NCBI RefSeq assembly: GCF_002214185.1
Contig: NZ_CP022161.1
Span: 5,277,486-5,341,485 of the forward strand
Direction of reading: 5' to 3'
Origin: Streptomyces capitiformicae
GTDB lineage: Bacteria > Actinomycetota > Actinomycetes > Streptomycetales > Streptomycetaceae
DNA: 64,000 bases
Shown: positions 49,260 to 64,000 of the stretch, in pieces
How the letters are laid out: each line of letters opens with the position of its first letter
How positions within the stretch are numbered: position 1 is the first letter of the stretch
Program-made: the position numbers and the translations under genes
Notes under the pieces: model-generated
Database searches by the model: none
Told to the model about the DNA's origin: nothing
What the model saw: only the letters and a program-made list of their open reading frames with translations

Positions 49260-49338
49260 GGAAGCGAGAGATGATCGAGGCTGGGCGCCCCGGCGTAAGT
49301 TGTCCCCGCCACTGCGGGGGTTGTCCGGAGTACGGGCT

Positions 49339-50241
49339 GTGAGCAGCGCGTCGGCCGCGATCCCTCAGCCGGGGCGCACCAAGGCCTTCCTCCGCCTGGT
49401 GATGATCGAGCACTCGATCTTCGCGCTGCCCTTCGCGTACATCGCCTCGCTGACCGCGATGTTCCAGCTGGACGGGAACATCCACTGGGGCCGTCTGCTC
49501 CTGGTCACCATCTGCATGGTGGGCCTGCGCACCTTCGCGATGGCCGTCAACCGGATCATCGACCGCGAGATCGACGCCCGTAACCCGCGTACGGCGCACC
49601 GCGAGTTGGTGACGGGAGCGATGTCCGTCCGCCACGCCTGGACGGGCGCCCTGATCGCGGTCGTCATCTTCCTCGGCTCGGCGGCCCTGCTGAATCCCCT
49701 GTGCCTGGCCCTGGCCCCCATCGCCGTGATCCCGATGGTGGTCTACCCCTACGGCAAACGCTTCACGAACTACCCCCAGGCGATCCTCGGCCTCGCCCAG
49801 GCCATGGGTCCGGTGGGCGGCTGGCTGGCGATCACGGGTTCCTGGTCCTGGGACGCGGTCATCCTCGGCCTGGCGGTGGGCATCTGGATCGGCGGCTTCG
49901 ACCTGATCTACGCCTGCCAGGACGTCGACTCCGATCGCGAGACCGGTGTCCTCTCGGTCCCGGCCCGCTTCGGTATTCCGGCGGCGGTGTGGGCGGCGCG
50001 GGTGTGCCACGTCCTGACGACGGGTCTGTTCATCTGGTACGCGGTGGTGACGGACGCGGGTGCCTTCCTCTGGTTCGGTCTGGCGATCGTGGCGGGCGCC
50101 TTCGTCTACGAGCACACGATCGTGCGGCCACATGACCTGTCCCGCCTGAACCGTGCGTTCTTCAGTGTCAACGGGTTCATCGGGATTGCCCTGTTCGTGT
50201 GCGCGCTGCTTGATTTGTTGGTTCGTGGCCTGACCCTCTGA
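49339..50241 (+). CDS. mqnP: Menaquinone prenyltransferase (UbiA family, MqnP-like)
   Basis: 300 residues, about eight membrane helices. The two aspartate-rich motifs are NRIIDREIDARNPRTAHRE (about 74-92) and YACQDVDSDRETG (about 192-204), which bind the prenyl diphosphate through Mg2+. It prenylates 1,4-dihydroxy-6-naphthoate in the futalosine route. The GTG start has GGAG 8 nt upstream. The start region repeats GARTACGGGCTGTGAG found at the end of the UbiD gene 80 bp earlier. Confidence 0.88.
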   Translation: MSSASAAIPQPGRTKAFLRLVMIEHSIFALPFAYIASLTAMFQLDGNIHWGRLLLVTICMVGLRTFAMAVNRIIDREIDARNPRTAHRELVTGAMSVRHAWTGALIAVVIFLGSAALLNPLCLALAPIAVIPMVVYPYGKRFTNYPQAILGLAQAMGPVGGWLAITGSWSWDAVILGLAVGIWIGGFDLIYACQDVDSDRETGVLSVPARFGIPAAVWAARVCHVLTTGLFIWYAVVTDAGAFLWFGLAIVAGAFVYEHTIVRPHDLSRLNRAFFSVNGFIGIALFVCALLDLLVRGLTL

Positions 50242-50246
50242 ATACG

Positions 50247-50813
50247 GTGCGCCTCGTGGATCGCTCACGTGCACAGCTGACTCGCTTGGCAGACCTCTTC
50301 CCGGGGTGGCTGACGGAGATCGTCGAAGGCAACGTCGTGGCGAGCCCGGTCACCCCGCACCACGGCAGCACGATCCGTCAGATCTGGAACGCCCTCGAGT
50401 CTCAGCTGAGCGCGGAGTGGGACGTCGTCAGCGATGTGGCCTTCCCCTTCGACGAGGAGAACGAGCTCTGCCCCGACCTCGCCGTCATCCCGGCATCCGA
50501 AGCGGAGAAGAACGAGGCAGCGTACTCACCCGGCCTCATCACGCTGGTCGTCGAGGTCGTCTCGCAGGCCAGCAGACGCCGCGACCACGAGATCAAGCCG
50601 CACTTGTACGCCTCCCGAGGCATCACCAACTACGTGATCCTGGATCCGCTCAAGGGCCACGCCGTCATGATGTGGAATCCCGGCCCCGACGGCTACCAGG
50701 GCCGCGACACCATCCCCTACGGCCCTGACCTGACCGTCGACTCTCCCCTGGGCAAGCTCGTGATCGCCACGGGCCGTCTCCCCGTGGACCCGAAGGCGCG
50801 CCCTAGGCGTTGA
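50247..50813 (+). CDS. Uma2-family (DUF820) PD-(D/E)XK-fold protein
   Basis: 188 residues. The fold motif is FDEENELCPDLAVIPA then LITLVVEVVSQASRRRDHEI, giving the D...ExV core of Uma2-type endonuclease-like proteins; HHGSTIRQIWNALES precedes it. GTG start 5 bp after mqnP stop, so co-transcribed. Streptomyces genomes carry many Uma2 genes of unknown function. It overlaps the convergent rhomboid gene by 11 bp. Confidence 0.85.
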   Translation: MRLVDRSRAQLTRLADLFPGWLTEIVEGNVVASPVTPHHGSTIRQIWNALESQLSAEWDVVSDVAFPFDEENELCPDLAVIPASEAEKNEAAYSPGLITLVVEVVSQASRRRDHEIKPHLYASRGITNYVILDPLKGHAVMMWNPGPDGYQGRDTIPYGPDLTVDSPLGKLVIATGRLPVDPKARPRR

Positions 50814-51453
50814 GCGTCCCGCGGGGTTCGCGGCGCCGGAACAAGAACGCCGCCACCACCCCCGTCACCAGACCGATCAAGTGCCCCTGCCAGCTCACAC
50901 CGGTCTGGGTGGGAGCGATGCCGGCGAGGATGGAGCCGCCCCAGATGCCGGCGATCACGACACCCACCGCCACCCCCAGCAGCCGCCGCTCGACGAACCC
51001 GCTGACCAGAAGGAAGCCGAAGAGACCGAAGACGACGCCGGAGGCGCCGGCGGTGTTGCTGTTGTCGGGGGATATGAGCCAGACACCCAGCCCATCGGCG
51101 ACGATGATCAGCGCGCAGACGGCGGCGAAGCGCCGCAACCCCCCGAGCGCCGAGAGAAAGCCCAGCACCAGCAACGGCACACTGTTCGCCGCGACATGAC
51201 CGAAGCCGAAGTGGATGAAGGCGGAAGGAACCACGTCCACCAACTCGGGCACCGCACGCGGCATGACCCCGAAGTCGTCCAGCGCATGCCCGCTCGCCAC
51301 ATCGATCAACTCGAGCAGCCACAGCAGCGCCACCCAGCCCACCATCAGCTTGGCGGCGGCCTTCGCCCGCTCCCCGCGGGACCAAGCCCGCTCCGAACTC
51401 AGCACGCCACGCATGCCACGCACTCTGCGAACCCCGCCCGTTCCATCCGCCAT
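50803..51453 (-). CDS. Rhomboid-family intramembrane serine protease
   Basis: 216 residues, six or seven membrane segments. Catalytic Ser138 (AGASGVVFGLFGF) and His191 (WQGHLIGLVTG), and the HFGFGHVAAN motif (81-90) with the oxyanion His/Asn, are all present. So it should be an active protease for membrane proteins. It lies inside the menaquinone cluster on the opposite strand, without an obvious link to it. Confidence 0.92.
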   Translation of the reverse strand: MADGTGGVRRVRGMRGVLSSERAWSRGERAKAAAKLMVGWVALLWLLELIDVASGHALDDFGVMPRAVPELVDVVPSAFIHFGFGHVAANSVPLLVLGFLSALGGLRRFAAVCALIIVADGLGVWLISPDNSNTAGASGVVFGLFGFLLVSGFVERRLLGVAVGVVIAGIWGGSILAGIAPTQTGVSWQGHLIGLVTGVVAAFLFRRREPRGTLNA

Positions 51454-51557
51454 GACAACCCCCGACTCGACTGGCGTCCCTCTCGCGTCCCTTCAGGAAA
51501 AACGACCGTGCCCCCTTGGCCGGTTCCCGCCCCACGCCGCCGGATAGGCTCGGTGTC

Positions 51558-52250
51558 GTGAACCCAGTCAAGCCAGGAGAGACGCCGCGTACGCCTTGGA
51601 TCGTAGGGGTGTCCGGCGCATCCGGCACCCCATATGCCGCGGCAGTGCTCCGCGCGCTCCTCGCCGCCGGCGAGAGCGTCGACCTCGTCGTGTCCCGGGC
51701 CTCGCGGCTGACCCTGCTGGACGAGACGGGCATCTCGTTCCGGGACGCGCACTGGCGGGACGACCTGCGGGAATGGCTGTGCCGGGGGGCCGATGGGAAG
51801 CCCGGCACATTCGCTGTGGACCTCGAGGGCGACCGCGTACGGCACTGGAGCGCCGGCGACCTGGCCGCCGGACCGTCCTCGGGCTCGTACCCCGTCAAGG
51901 GGATGCTGATCGTCCCCGCGTCGACGGCGTGCGTCGCGGGCGTCGCGCTGGCCCTGAGCAAGGACCTGCTCCAGCGGGCGGCGAGCGTGACCCTCAAGGA
52001 GCGGCGGCGCCTGGTCGTCGCCGTACGCGAGACCCCGTTGAACGGGCAGACCCTGCGGCACCTGGTGACCCTGGACGACGCGGGCGCGACCGTACTGCCC
52101 GCCTCCCCGGCCTTCTACGCGGGGGCCACGCACATCCAGGACCTGGTGGACTTCGTCGCCGGACGGGTGCTGGACGCGGCGGGCGTCGAGCACACCCTGT
52201 ACCGGCGCTGGGAGGGCGACGTCGGCGGGGCGCGCTCGCCCCGTACCTGA
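51558..52250 (+). CDS. ubiX: UbiX-family flavin prenyltransferase
   Basis: 230 residues. WIVGVSGASGTPYAAAVLRA binds FMN. IVPASTACVAGVALALSKDL and RRLVVAVRETPLNGQTLRHL are the canonical UbiX lines (prenyl phosphate site). It makes prenylated FMN for the UbiD decarboxylase 4 kb upstream. The GTG at 51558 is chosen; in-frame upstream codons are less likely. It is followed by an Lrp regulator and mqnE. Confidence 0.9.
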   Translation: MNPVKPGETPRTPWIVGVSGASGTPYAAAVLRALLAAGESVDLVVSRASRLTLLDETGISFRDAHWRDDLREWLCRGADGKPGTFAVDLEGDRVRHWSAGDLAAGPSSGSYPVKGMLIVPASTACVAGVALALSKDLLQRAASVTLKERRRLVVAVRETPLNGQTLRHLVTLDDAGATVLPASPAFYAGATHIQDLVDFVAGRVLDAAGVEHTLYRRWEGDVGGARSPRT

Positions 52251-52360
52251 CTCCCCTCCGCGGCACGCACCCGCAGCACTCTCACGCAGTACTCATCCGC
52301 ACCACTCTCATCTCACGCACCACCCACAACGACACTCTTCAGCGGAAGGCAACCGATCGC

Positions 52361-52816
52361 ATGGACGCGGTGGACAGGCAGCTCATCCAGGCCCTGAGGG
52401 AGAACGGCCGGGCCTCCTACGCGGAGCTGGGACGCCTCGTCGGTCTGTCGGGACCCAGCGTCACCGACCGCATCAACCGGCTGGAGGCGGCCGGGGTCAT
52501 CACCGGCTATCGCGCCACCGTCGACGCGGCCTCCCTCGGCCTCGGCGTGACCGCGCTCATCGGCATCTCGCTCTCCGACGCCGCCGACCACGAGGACGTG
52601 GCGACCCGGCTGCGGGACCTGGCCGAGATCGAGGACTGCTGGTTCATCGCGGGCGACGACTCGTTCATGCTCAAGGTGCGCGCCCCCGACGTGGACGGCC
52701 TGGAGAAGACCATCCGCCGGCTCTCCGGTACGAAGGGCGTCTCCCGGACCCGTACGACCATCGTGCTCTCCACGAAGTGGGAGAACCGGGTGGGTGAGCT
52801 GCCGGACGAGGAGTAG
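52361..52816 (+). CDS. Lrp/AsnC-family transcriptional regulator
   Basis: 151 residues. HTH at about 5-50 (DRQLIQALRENGRASYAELG, LSGPSVTDRINRLEAAGVIT), and the RAM effector domain at about 65-140 (HEDVATRLRDLAEIEDCWFI, AGDDSFMLKVRAPDVDGLEK). ATG with GGAAGG upstream. It sits between UbiX and MqnE, 43 bp before mqnE on the same strand, so it may regulate menaquinone genes in response to an amino acid; this is inference. Confidence 0.9.
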   Translation: MDAVDRQLIQALRENGRASYAELGRLVGLSGPSVTDRINRLEAAGVITGYRATVDAASLGLGVTALIGISLSDAADHEDVATRLRDLAEIEDCWFIAGDDSFMLKVRAPDVDGLEKTIRRLSGTKGVSRTRTTIVLSTKWENRVGELPDEE

Positions 52817-52859
52817 GCGTACGGTTGCAGCAGTTTTGTCGGTGAGGAGAGGCGGAGGC

Positions 52860-54023
52860 ATGGACGTCGGGCTCAAGCGCGAGCTGGAGGAGAAGGTCCG
52901 CTCCGGTGAGCGGCTGACCCGCGAGGACGGCATCGCGCTGTACGAGTCGGACGACCTGGCCTGGCTGGGCGGACTCGCGCACGAGGTGCGGACGCGGAAG
53001 AACGGCGATGTCGTCCACTTCAACGTCAACCGCCACCTCAACATGACCAACGTGTGCACGGCCTCCTGCGCGTACTGCTCCTTCCAGCGCAAGCCGGGGG
53101 AGAAGGACGCGTACACGATGCGGATCGAGGAGGCCGTCAAGCTCGCCAAGGCGATGGAGTCGGAGAACCTCACCGAGCTGCACATCGTCAACGGCCTGCA
53201 CCCCAACCTGCCGTGGCGCTACTACCCGCGCTCGCTGCGCGAGTTGAAGGCGGCCCTGCCGAACGTGTCGTTGAAGGCCTTCACGGCCACCGAGATCCAC
53301 CACTTCGAGACGATCAGCGGTCTGTCGGCGTCCGAGATCCTGGACGAACTGATCGACGCGGGCCTGGAGTCGCTCACCGGCGGCGGAGCGGAGATCTTCG
53401 ACTGGGAGGTCCGGCAGCACATCGTCGACCACCGCACCCACTGGGAGGACTGGTCGCGGATCCACCGCCTGGCGCACGAGAAGGGTCTGAAGACCCCGTG
53501 CACCATGCTGTACGGCCACATCGAGGAGCCCCGCCACCGCGTCGACCACGTCCTGCGCCTGCGTGAACTCCAGGACGAGACGAACGGCTTCCAGGTCTTC
53601 ATCCCCCTGCGCTACCAGCACGACTTCGTCGACATGAAGGACGGCAAGGTACGCAACCGCCTCCAGGCCCGCACCCAGATGGCGACGGGGGCGGAGGCCC
53701 TGAAGACCTTCGCGGTCTCTCGGCTGCTGTTCGACAACGTCCCCCACGTCAAGGTCTTCTGGGTCATGCACGGCGTCCAGACCGCGCAACTGGCCCTCCA
53801 GCACGGCGCCGACGACATGGACGGCTCGGTGGTCGAATACAAGATCACCCACGACGCCGACAACTACGGCACGCCGAACAAACTCACCCGCGAGGACCTC
53901 CTGGACCTCATCCGAGACGCCGGCTTCCGCCCCGTCGAACGGAACACCCGCTACGAGATCATCCGCGAGTACGAGGCCCCCGACCCCGAGCGCCGCGAGT
54001 CCCCCCAGCCGATGCGCGTATAG
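52860..54023 (+). CDS. mqnE: Aminofutalosine synthase (radical SAM)
   Basis: 387 residues. Radical-SAM cysteines C66, C70 and C73 (NVCTASCAYCSF). MqnE features are FNVNRHLNMTNVC, HIVNGLHPNLPWRYYPRSLR, GGGAEIFDWEVRQHIVDHRT and TPCTMLYGHIEEPRHRVDHV. It adds a SAM-derived adenosyl radical to the MqnA product to form 6-amino-6-deoxyfutalosine. ATG with GGAGGC just upstream. The rest of the early pathway (mqnA, B, C, D) is not in this window. Confidence 0.95.
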   Translation: MDVGLKRELEEKVRSGERLTREDGIALYESDDLAWLGGLAHEVRTRKNGDVVHFNVNRHLNMTNVCTASCAYCSFQRKPGEKDAYTMRIEEAVKLAKAMESENLTELHIVNGLHPNLPWRYYPRSLRELKAALPNVSLKAFTATEIHHFETISGLSASEILDELIDAGLESLTGGGAEIFDWEVRQHIVDHRTHWEDWSRIHRLAHEKGLKTPCTMLYGHIEEPRHRVDHVLRLRELQDETNGFQVFIPLRYQHDFVDMKDGKVRNRLQARTQMATGAEALKTFAVSRLLFDNVPHVKVFWVMHGVQTAQLALQHGADDMDGSVVEYKITHDADNYGTPNKLTREDLLDLIRDAGFRPVERNTRYEIIREYEAPDPERRESPQPMRV

Positions 54024-59701: not shown

Positions 59702-60163
59702 CAGTTCCGCCCCGTTTCGTCGCGTTCCATCACCCAGCCCACCGGCCACCGGTCGACTCCTCCCTGGAGAGTCATTCCGGCAGGATTCGGTTGTACGCGG
59801 CGACGAACTTCTGAGGCGGGCGGGTCGGGAATCGTGTGGATGCCGGCGGCGAGGGTGCGATCGGGGCCGGGCGGGATGTGCACGTTTGGCGTGACGCCGC
59901 TGTCCGGTCGGCGCTGACAAGGCCATCGGGGAAAGGAGCCGGCGCGACCGACGCCAGTGGATTCCCCAGGATTTCCACATTCCGGGAGCGAAACCTTTGC
60001 CTCGACTTCGTCTCCTTTCTCTTCCGTCCCCGGCGGAACTTTGCTCCTCGTAAGGAAATTCGAGCAAGTCGAAATTCCGTCAAGAGATGCGATCGATGTT
60101 TTCAGGACTTTGCCTGCTGTGGGGATCCGGGAAATCGTTTCTGCCTATCTACGATTTCAAACC
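59702..60163. other. Gene-free region before the amino-acid oxidase
   Basis: About 460 bp. No convincing gene; the second half (59990-60160) is clearly AT-richer than its surroundings. GAAATTC occurs twice (60056 and 60072). The promoter of the oxidase must be here. The oxidase frame stays open for about 69 codons upstream of the chosen ATG, so a longer N-terminus is possible but unlikely given composition. Confidence 0.5.
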
Positions 60164-62203
60164 ATGACCGACACTCCACGGGACAACTCCGCCACCCGTG
60201 CGCGCTGGCAGACGTGTCTCAAGCTCGCCCGCGAACTCCTCCTCGTCGGGCCGGACGACAAGGACCTCAAACTCAGCTATCTCCACACCCTGATCGACAC
60301 GGGCCGTCTCGGCCCCACCCACCACCCGCGCAAGAAGATCCTCGTCATCGGCGCCGGCATCACCGGCCTCGTCGCCGGCCGCCTGCTCAAGGACGCCGGC
60401 CACGACGTCACCATCATCGAGGCCAATGAAAGCCGCGTCGGCGGACGCATCAAGACCTTCCGCGCCACCAAGCACCACCAGCCCTTCGACGACCCCGCCC
60501 AGTATGCGGAGGCCGGGGCCATGCGGCTGCCCGACTTCCACCCGCTCGTCCTCGCCCTCGTCGACAAACTCGGACTCGGCCGGCGCCAGTTCTACAACGT
60601 GGACGTGGACCCCTCCACCGGCAGCGGTCCCGAGGTCCCCGTCCCCCCGGTGACGTACACCTCCTTCACCGGCCAGACGTGGACCAACGGCGACGCGAGC
60701 CCCGACTTCCGCGAACCCGACAAGCGCGGCAACTCCTGGATCCGCGCCAACCGCGTCCAGATGCGGCGGGCCGACTACACCGCGAGTCCCGAACGGATCA
60801 ACGAGGGCTTCCACCTCACCGGCGACGAGGTCCGCGCGCCCGTCGTGAAGATGGTCGACGACGCGCTGGAGAGCGTGCGCGACTACTACTCCGACGTCGT
60901 CGACGGCAAGCGTGTCAACAAGCCGTTCGACGAGTGGGTCGAGGGCTGGGCCCGGGTGATCCGCGACTTCGACGGCTACTCCATGGGCGGCTTCCTGCGA
61001 GACCACGCCGGGCTCAGCGACGAGGCGATCGAGGCCGTCGGAACCCTGGAGAACATGTCCTCACGGCTGCACCTCTCCTTCTTCCACAGCTTCCTGAGCC
61101 GCAGCGACATCAACCCCACCGTCCGCTACTGGGAGATACCCGGCGGCAGTTGGCGCCTGCCGCACGCCCTCCACGAGGGCCTACGCGACGAGGTGCGGCT
61201 CGGCCACCGCATGATCCGCCTCGAATACCACGACCCCAGCCGCGACACCGACCCCGAGGGCACCGCCGTCGGACCCGACGGATGGGGCGTGACCGTGGAG
61301 ACCGTCGCCGAGAACGACCCGCAGGCCCCGCCGCGCCGGTGGACCGCGGACCTGGCGATCGTCACCATCCCGTTCTCCGCCCTGCGCTTCGTGGAGATCG
61401 TCCCCTCGATGTCGTACAAGAAGCGCCGCGCCATCATCGAGACCCACTACGACTCGGCCACCAAGGTGCTGCTGGAGTTCAGCCACCGGTGGTGGGAGTT
61501 CACCGAGGACGACTGGCGCGAGGAGCTGGAGAGGATCGCACCGGGCGTCTACGAGTACTACCGGCTGGGCCCGGAGGCGGCCGGCGAGCCCGCCCGTATG
61601 CCCACGCTCGCCGAGGCGGACGCCGGCCTGCTCGGTGCCGCCGTCAAGGACAGCGGCGTCACCGAGGAGATGCGGCAGATCGACAGCACCATGCCGCTGC
61701 GCGGCCCCGCCCTCCGCCCCGCCACCCACAGCTTCGGCGGGGGCTCCGCCACCGACAACCCCAACCGGTTCATGTACTACCCGTCGCACCGGGTCGAGGG
61801 CAGCACCGGCGGCGTGGTGCTCGCCTCGTACTCCTGGTCCGACGACGCCGCGCGCTGGGACTCGATGCGGAACGCGGAGCGCTACGTCTACGCCCTGCGC
61901 AACCTCCAGGCCCTGCACGGCCGACGCATCGAGGTGTTCTTCACCGGGCGCGGCGCCACCAAGAGCTGGGCCCGCGACCCGTACGCCTTCGGCGAGGCCG
62001 CCATCTACACCGCGCACCAGATGACCAGCTTCCACCTGGACGTCTCCCGGCCCGAAGGCCCCGTGCACTTCGCCGGAGAGCACACCTCCCTCAAGCACGC
62101 CTGGATCGAGGGCGCCCTGGAGAGCGCCGTCCGCGCCGCCATCGCCGTCCACCAGGCCCCGCCGGTCACCACCCCGGGCCCGGACGGGGAGGGCCGCTCA
62201 TGA
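60164..62203 (+). CDS. L-glutamate-oxidase-like flavin amino-acid oxidase
   Basis: 679 residues. FAD motif GAGITG (63-68) followed by [25 protein letters not shown] gives R121, the alpha-carboxylate arginine in relatives. [20 protein letters not shown] and [19 protein letters not shown] give R301 and H308, which align by eye with the glutamate-specificity Arg305 and His312 I recall from Streptomyces L-glutamate oxidase. The C-terminus [20 protein letters not shown] is canonical. Oxidative deamination of L-glutamate (or a close amino acid) to the 2-oxo acid, H2O2 and ammonia is expected. The start has no strong ribosome site. It overlaps the next gene by 4 nt (ATGA). Confidence 0.85.
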
Positions 62204-64000
62204 CCGCGATCACCTCCGGGACCGCGATCACCCCTGGGTGCACGGTCGCCCGCTATCTCGCCCTGCGCCTGGCCGAGTTGGGCATCACCCACCTCTTCGG
62301 CGTCCCCGGCAACCACCTCGGCCCCTTCTTGACCACCCTGCGGGCCGAGGGCGACATCGAGTGGGTCGGCACCCCCACCGAGGGCGGCGCGGGCCAGGCC
62401 GCCGACGCCTACGCCCGGATCCACGGCGTCGGCGCGGCCGCGGTCACCTACAGTGTGGGCGCGTTCAACCTGCTCAACGCCTGCGGTGGCGCCTACGTCG
62501 AGCAGGTCCCGCTCGTCGCCGTCAACGCTTCCCCGCCCTACGAGCAGTGGCAGAACTACCGCGCCCTCGGCCTGCTCACCTCCCACATGAGCCCCCGCCC
62601 GGAGAGCAACCTGGACGTCTACCGGCAGGTCACCGTGGACGCGCAGGTCATCTCCAACCCGGGCCTCGCCCCCGCCCAGATCGACGCCGCGCTCACCGCG
62701 TGCCTCTCCGAGCGCAGGCCGGTCTACCTGGAGGTCATGGAGGACCTGTGGGACGAGCCCTGCGCCGAGCCCGGGGAGCCGATCATCCGCCGCGAGCGGC
62801 CGTTCAGCGCGCGCAACCAGCTGATGCTGGACCACGCCGTGAACGCGATCCTCACCCTGGTCGAGGAGCACCCCGGCCCGGACGGAACGCCCCGCCCCAT
62901 CGTCTGGGCCGGCGAGGAGATCGACCGGTTCCGCCTGGGCGGGCAGCTCACCGACCTGGTGGAGGGAACCGGCGTGCCGTTCTGCACCACTGTCGGCGCC
63001 AAGGCCGTCGTCGACGAGGACCTGCCGCAGTTCCACGGCGTCTACAACGGCCACGCCAGCCACCCGGACGTGCACGGCGTCTTCAAGGACTGGGCCACCT
63101 GCCGGATCGGGCTCGGCGCCTGGTCCACGTCGAAGAACCTCGGCGGCGAGCAGTGCGTCGGCGGCGACTGGGTGATGGCCGCGAACGGCGGCGTCAGTGT
63201 CGGCAGCTCCTACTTCCCCGACGTCCAGCTCGAACAACTCCTGCCCGCCCTCCAGGACGCGCTGGTGAAGCGCTACGGCTCCGGGGGGCTGGCCGCCGAC
63301 TACTACGCCGAGGCCCATGCCCATCTGGGGGAGTCCGTCGACCGCCCCGCCGGCCTGGAGCAGTACCGCGCCTCGCTCCGCACCAGCGGCTCACGGTCCC
63401 GGCACGCCGAACGGCTCACCTACGACGGCGTGTTCGACCGGATCAACCACTTCCTGGGCCACGAGACCCGGCAGGACTGGACGGTCGTCTCCGACGCCGC
63501 GTTCTCCCTCATCGGCTCGATGAACCTGTCCCTGTCCGCGGGCGGGTTCCTGTCGCAGGTCAGCTGGCTGTCCATCGGCTGGTCGGTCGGCGCGGCCACC
63601 GGCGCCGCGCTCGCCCCCGAGCGCGGGCAGGCCCGCCCGATGGTGTTCGTCGGCGACGGCGCCTTCCAGGAGACCTGTCAGGAGATCTCCACCCACACCA
63701 GGCTCGGGCTGCGGTCGGTGGTGTTCGTCATGGACAACGGACACTTCTACGGCATCGAACAGATGCTGGTGCACCCCGCCTACTACGCGGACGACCAAGG
63801 GGCCTCCCACGACCCCGACTTCTACAACGTCCTCCACCCCTGGCACTACGACCGTCTCGCGGCCGTCTTCGCCGCCAAGGAGACCCCGGCGAACGGGATC
63901 ACCATCGCCCACACCTCCGAACTGGACGACCTTCTGACCCGCCTCACCGACCCGACCGACCCCGTCAACGCCGGACCGCTGCTGGTCCGCGTCCGCCTGC
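62200..64000 (+). CDS. ThDP-dependent 2-oxo-acid decarboxylase, partial
   Basis: 600 codons visible, running off the right edge. N-terminal Pyr domain: [20 protein letters not shown] and [20 protein letters not shown] with the catalytic Glu. A central domain follows ([20 protein letters not shown]). C-terminal PP domain: [20 protein letters not shown] then [17 protein letters not shown], the GDG...N ThDP/Mg2+ motif. Resembles pyruvate/indolepyruvate/branched-chain decarboxylases. It is coupled to the oxidase by ATGA overlap, so the pair could turn an amino acid into an aldehyde; succinic semialdehyde if the substrate is glutamate. Confidence 0.85.

Follow-up and report, generated by a model that had tools for sequence, protein, structure and literature searches.

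Which reaction does an L-glutamate oxidase (LGOX) serve in Streptomyces when its gene runs into that of a thiamine diphosphate (ThDP)-dependent enzyme? The question is raised by the right-hand end of a 64,000-nt stretch of Streptomyces capitiformicae DNA (NZ_CP022161.1, positions 5,277,486 to 5,341,485; hereafter the window), which is part of a single contig of 10.99 Mb (G000:C1:5277486-5341485). LGOX has long been in commercial use for glutamate sensors. In the excerpts available from the literature on the enzyme, no account of its physiological role was found. We propose, with a probability of about 0.5, that the two genes form a translationally coupled cassette which converts glutamate via 2-oxoglutarate, most likely to succinic semialdehyde.

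Scanning genome contigs for six peptide patterns drawn from the window protein yielded 38 further Streptomyces loci of the same kind (type 1). Since the patterns derive from the window protein, close relatives are favoured among these loci; the nearest ThDP homologue in the scan is that of S. tailanensis (L036, 97%). Oxidase sequence precedes the ThDP gene in 37 of the 38. The match is full-length in 32 loci, lies in two frames in L035 and consists of remnants only in L014, L020, L041 and L044, while L015 has none. The reading frame in L035 is broken by a frameshift, either real or a sequencing error. A third gene, assigned to the PixA/AidA family (PF12306, 159.8 bits against a Pfam gathering cut-off of 21, 8.8e-47), follows the ThDP gene with a match in 37 of the 38 loci, two of the matches being partial (L036 and L041). 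A ThDP start that gives an overlap of exactly 4 nt with the oxidase stop is present in 36/38 loci (all except L015 and L035) and in 12/12 loci of a second branch described below. This confirms the overlap reported in the initial annotation and, given these counts, is more than chance. The surroundings of the cassette vary, and some close relatives have common flanks. In an all-against-all comparison of flanking open reading frames from the 38 loci and the own genome (genes found with a crude filter on third-position GC content; operon genes and reading frames lying over them excluded), no family besides the operon genes occurred in more than 5 of the 39 loci. LGOX-ThDP-PixA is a conserved, self-contained and compact cassette and no local accident.

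The top Protein Data Bank (PDB) matches of the oxidase are L-glutamate oxidases. The identity to the chain of Streptomyces sp. X-119-6 LGOX (PDB 2e1m, 7e0c, 8jpw), which is known as a stand-alone sensor enzyme, extends over 659 positions. The FAD motif was found, and R121, R301, H308, Y556, W558 and W647 align with LGOX R124, R305, H312, Y562, W564 and W653, which we take to be the pocket set of that enzyme. All six residues are kept in 32/32 full-length type-1 orthologues, in 2 type-2 copies and in the 6 paralogues compared. Thus, the LGOX-like oxidase with FAD motif and carboxylate-binding arginines that had been read from the window holds up, and the alignment shows no loss of the arginine pocket in any protein compared. 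From the identity to X-119-6 LGOX and from this pocket we predict, with strong confidence, that glutamate is the substrate. LGOX turns glutamate into 2-oxoglutarate, NH3 and H2O2, according to excerpts of two papers (PMC11055115, PMC13026155). In locus L091 the LGOX shares 98.3% identity with the X-119-6 chain (7e0c). One of its 12 substitutions is at position 305, which is Glu in 7e0c and Arg in both 8jpw and L091. The L091 gene shares 4 nt with the ThDP gene behind it, so that this operon type includes a protein nearly identical to the sensor enzyme. Many Streptomyces genomes contain a further LGOX-type oxidase of about 50% identity (L047-L052).

The highest scores of the ThDP protein, in sequence as well as in predicted fold, are with pyruvate, indolepyruvate and branched-chain decarboxylases; those with acetolactate synthases are lower. 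It reaches 169.1 bits with the indolepyruvate decarboxylase (IPDC) model TIGR03393, which is far below the NCBIfam equivalog cut-off of 946, and 81 bits with the best acetolactate synthase model (NF006187; cut-off 509, likewise above the score). The best PDB chains gave 175 bits for the decarboxylase type and 75 bits for the acetolactate synthase type. The initial assignment as an enzyme resembling IPDC and pyruvate decarboxylase (PDC) is therefore upheld by these scores. A ligase of the acetolactate (acetohydroxyacid) synthase type is unsupported by them; ligase chemistry could still occur. The cofactor motifs for ThDP and Mg are intact, with E61 (standard position 51), G485-D486-G487 and N513. 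Among 197 family proteins H129 and E520 are invariant (197/197 each), and position 128 is Ser in 192 and Thr in 5.

A second branch (type 2, about 60% identical) includes 12 of the 33 positives in the sample of 392 genus genomes. The genomic contexts were fetched for these 12 type-2 hits rather than for the type-1 hits, and in 12/12 LGOX lies immediately 5' of the ThDP gene with a 4-nt overlap. Another 20 fetched loci comprise one of type 1 (L129), one distant relative (L113) and 18 of type 2, the latter spread over Streptomyces and two further genera of its family. Directly before the ThDP gene, these 18 have LGOX in 11 cases (10 with the 4-nt overlap and one at -1), another amine oxidase (LAAO2; closest PDB entry 2jae) in 2, a DyP peroxidase in 2 and none of these in 3. 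Overall, the LGOX-ThDP arrangement is found in 23/30 type-2 loci. A DyP gene stands directly 5' of LGOX in 9 of these 23 (L084, L085, L090, L092, L095, L125, L127, L128 and L132) and, in addition, on two annotated plasmids of Streptomyces. The DyP-type gene upstream in L087 is a different one, and L119-L121 gave partial matches only. LAAO2 lies 3' of the ThDP gene in L084, L085 and L090, overlapping by 4 nt in L084, and takes the place of LGOX in L114 and L115, where the LAAO2-ThDP pairs are without overlap. In L113, whose ThDP protein is 36-39% identical, a third oxidase family (PDB 7c4k/7og2) ends 8 nt before the ThDP gene. Some matches fall into two pieces, namely DyP and ThDP in L095 and LAAO2 in L115. 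The ThDP positions 133/312/437 are Arg/Lys/Leu in 67/70 loci, be it with LGOX, with a remnant or with no oxidase. The exceptions are exactly the three loci with another oxidase, L113 (Asn/Lys/Leu), L114 (Arg/Asn/Gln) and L115 (Arg/Gly/Gln), so that the pattern depends on three exceptional loci, of which one genus supplies two. The residues were placed in the pocket by sequence alignment. K312 adjoins the position of PDC Y290 and KdcA S286, as we presume these residues to be numbered. L437 aligns with standard position 392, which is occupied by a Trp and is reported in an excerpted study to affect carboligation (PMC3534367).

In the proposed mechanism LGOX would convert L-glutamate and O2 to 2-oxoglutarate, NH3 and H2O2, and the divergent ThDP enzyme of PDC fold would consume the 2-oxoglutarate, most likely with release of CO2 and formation of succinic semialdehyde. 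Besides ammonia and peroxide, the cassette would deliver a C4 aldehyde that could be oxidised to succinate by ordinary dehydrogenases; in the sister branch the DyP often encoded in front could use the peroxide. The adjacency of LGOX and ThDP genes, the substitution of the oxidase by other amino-acid oxidases and the R133/K312/L437 pattern support the use of the LGOX product by the ThDP enzyme. We have fair confidence in 2-oxoglutarate as its predicted substrate and moderate confidence in an aldehyde, succinic semialdehyde, as the probable product. The γ-aminobutyric acid (GABA) shunt likewise leads from glutamate to succinic semialdehyde but uses a pyridoxal phosphate-dependent decarboxylase and a transaminase. 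The pair in the window would instead employ an oxidase and a ThDP enzyme, without GABA, and yield NH3 and H2O2.

Two caveats apply to this reading. The ThDP motifs had been described as intact, which is correct for the cofactor motifs and not for the acid-base set, where two of the four PDC residues are replaced (D28 by N38 and the first His of the HH motif by S128). The step from 2-oxoglutarate to succinic semialdehyde is therefore likely but unproven. PDC, IPDC and KdcA/KivD are only about 22-28% identical to the window enzyme; in its family D28 is mostly Asn, and HH has become Ser-His. An excerpt describes the HH motif as specific to decarboxylase families of the PDC, IPDC and phenylpyruvate decarboxylase type (PMC3534367). 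A Rhizobium relative (35%) has the Asp, HH and Glu, and no amino-acid oxidase is annotated within 6 kb of it. The main rival is a carboligase, in which the ThDP enzyme would decarboxylate 2-oxoglutarate and transfer the C4 unit to an acceptor, either an aldehyde or an oxo acid, to give a hydroxyketone. We consider this unlikely, since position 38 varies (Asn in 157, Asp in 39 and a gap in 1 of the 197 family proteins), with both residues among LGOX-linked loci, and since an acceptor-making gene is not conserved nearby, given the absence of a widespread flanking family.

The second caveat is the repeated loss of the oxidase, by about four in-frame deletions, with the ThDP enzyme remaining under selection. 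In L014, L020, L041 and L044 it is cut in frame to about the first 26-60 codons plus C-terminal parts, the 4-nt overlap being kept, and in L015 the initial oxidase codons run directly into the ThDP frame as a fusion; the tree requires 4 losses. The dN/dS of the ThDP gene is 0.21-0.41 in five comparisons with oxidase-loss lineages and 0.12-0.50 in ten between others. A second LGOX elsewhere in the genome (48-50% identical) is present in 5/5 genomes with the cis oxidase deleted versus 10/33 others, including the one with the frameshifted L035 (Fisher p = 0.006). L034, whose ThDP match is in two pieces, was left out, and L035, which has a paralogue, was entered among the genomes without loss; the searches used differing E-value limits (1e-40, 1e-20 and 1e-60). 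Compensation by paralogues was not retained as a result, because the 38 rows contain only 4 independent losses and independent pairs give a median p of 0.5. The loss pattern is consistent with a ThDP enzyme dependent on LGOX activity from some source, although the events are few.

H2O2 is quenched by 2-oxo acids. Under another reading the cassette would mainly generate peroxide, for antagonism or as a signal; the ThDP enzyme would remove 2-oxoglutarate to prevent its accumulation or the quenching of H2O2, and PixA/AidA would be an accessory. The identity of the third gene would fit, as would the surroundings that differ between species and the association of a peroxide user with part of the type-2 loci. 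In an excerpt on the family, which is described as stationary-phase and poorly understood, an AidA was required for virulence in C. elegans (PMC9060813). Repeated deletion of the oxidase with retention of the ThDP gene is, however, the opposite of what a weapon predicts, and by eye no secretion signal was noticed on LGOX, so that we rate this alternative as less probable than carboligation. Still more doubtful is that oxidase and ThDP enzyme are merely co-expressed, the latter acting on a 2-oxo acid unrelated to the LGOX product. The persistence of the ThDP gene without cis oxidase and the occupation of the LGOX place by other oxidase families would agree with it, but the 4-nt coupling is near-invariant, the replacements in three loci are amino-acid oxidases and not unrelated genes, and the ThDP residue changes are limited to those three loci.

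Table 1. Features of the cassette and its upstream region (window positions unless a locus is named).
Feature	Position	Strand	Remarks
Palindrome GAAATCGTTTC, putative operator	60131..60141	+	GAAA-N3-TTTC at -33 from start codon
TACGAT, -10-like box	60150..60155	+	14 nt before ATG
L-glutamate oxidase (LGOX), 679 aa	60164..62203	+	937 bits to PDB 7e0c, 65% identity to X-119-6 chain
Oxidase R121 codon	60524-60526		
Oxidase R301 codon	61064-61066		
ATGA stop/start overlap, 4 nt	62200..62203	+	ThDP start ATG inside ATGA
ThDP-dependent enzyme, pyruvate decarboxylase type, 624 aa	62200..64000, continuing past window	+	Pfam TPP_enzyme N/M/C
N38	62311..62313	+	at PDC standard position 28 (Asp)
S128-H129	62581..62586	+	replacing HH motif (standard 114/115)
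GDG Mg/ThDP motif, 485-487	63652..63660	+	
E520	63757..63759	+	at PDC standard position 477
Complete ThDP gene in parent genome	L003:2685-4559		stop 74 nt past the last base of the window
PixA/AidA, third gene, 169 aa	L003:4552-5061, outside window		overlaps ThDP gene by 8 nt

The upstream region of the oxidase gene was compared in 38 type-1 regions (own genome and 37 loci; L044 left out). TA[CG]GAT lies exactly 14 nt 5' of the ATG in 38/38 and the palindrome at -33 in 23/38. The exact position of the -10-like box suggests a leaderless oxidase mRNA, and thus that the type-1 cassette transcript may be leaderless; common descent could account for part of the conservation of the box. No Shine-Dalgarno sequence was seen by eye before the oxidase ATG in the upstream alignment rows viewed. 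Several type-2 loci have GGAG-like leaders (by eye), unlike the leaderless-looking type-1 cassettes.

Downstream of PixA follow a helix-turn-helix/DUF5753 gene and others on the opposite strand and then HATPase and glycosyltransferase-like genes, the latter recognised by eye. Among the 7 flanking proteins of the window operon that were compared, 6 recur in L036; L011 has one helix-turn-helix match of 32%, and the other 36/38 loci have none. A biosynthetic cluster beginning to the right of the window, as had been suggested for this pair, is therefore rejected as unsupported, because PixA is followed by non-conserved genes that, among the 38 loci, are shared as a set only by the nearest relative. 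Further left in the window, at 49300-54023, genes resembling UbiA, UbiX and an MqnE-type radical SAM enzyme (by eye only) suggest futalosine menaquinone biosynthesis.

The wider distribution was surveyed in several samples. Among 100 relatives the ThDP protein was found in 3 (E <= 1e-40), with an identity as low as 31% in one of these, and LGOX in 27. The family sample gave 26/200 genomes with the ThDP gene, for which 19 contexts were fetched (G902, G908 and G958 were left out, and G273 and G331 are represented as short loci only). It was also present in 2/396 genomes of the phylum, 4/4 of one genus and 1/151 of an order. Protein searches kept the best 120 matches each, scored from the 8000 candidates sharing most words; among the matches listed, the names of type-2 protein records, taken alone, include Kitasatospora and Embleya.

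No oxidase-ThDP operon of this type was found in the open-access literature, in line with the initial annotation, which knew of no standard operon of this kind. A genomic partner of X-119-6 LGOX is not mentioned in the available excerpts of the LGOX literature. Excerpts on PixA/AidA inclusion-body proteins treat cases from Burkholderia, Xenorhabdus, Ralstonia and Photorhabdus, and Actinobacteria appear only as having relatives; in the present operon, by contrast, a member of the family is encoded together with two metabolic enzymes. The literature used consists of excerpts of five papers (PMC11055115, PMC13026155, PMC9060813, PMC10143992 and PMC3534367).

Three features lay beyond the view of the initial annotation, namely the third gene PixA, the variant with DyP peroxidase and the near-identical characterised LGOX in the same operon type. 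The ThDP proteins constitute an uncharacterised subfamily with a non-canonical acid-base set, which may serve for making C4 aldehydes or acyloins. For the oxidase, the conserved operon partner provides a direct, testable proposal for its natural role. We give even odds to a joint reading in which the Streptomyces biosensor LGOX family would natively provide the first half of a dedicated oxidase-ThDP module, a shunt without GABA that is driven by oxygen and leads from glutamate to a C4 aldehyde or a derived acyloin. In this reading the module would travel as a compact unit, and its ThDP pocket would be altered wherever LGOX has given way to another amino-acid oxidase.
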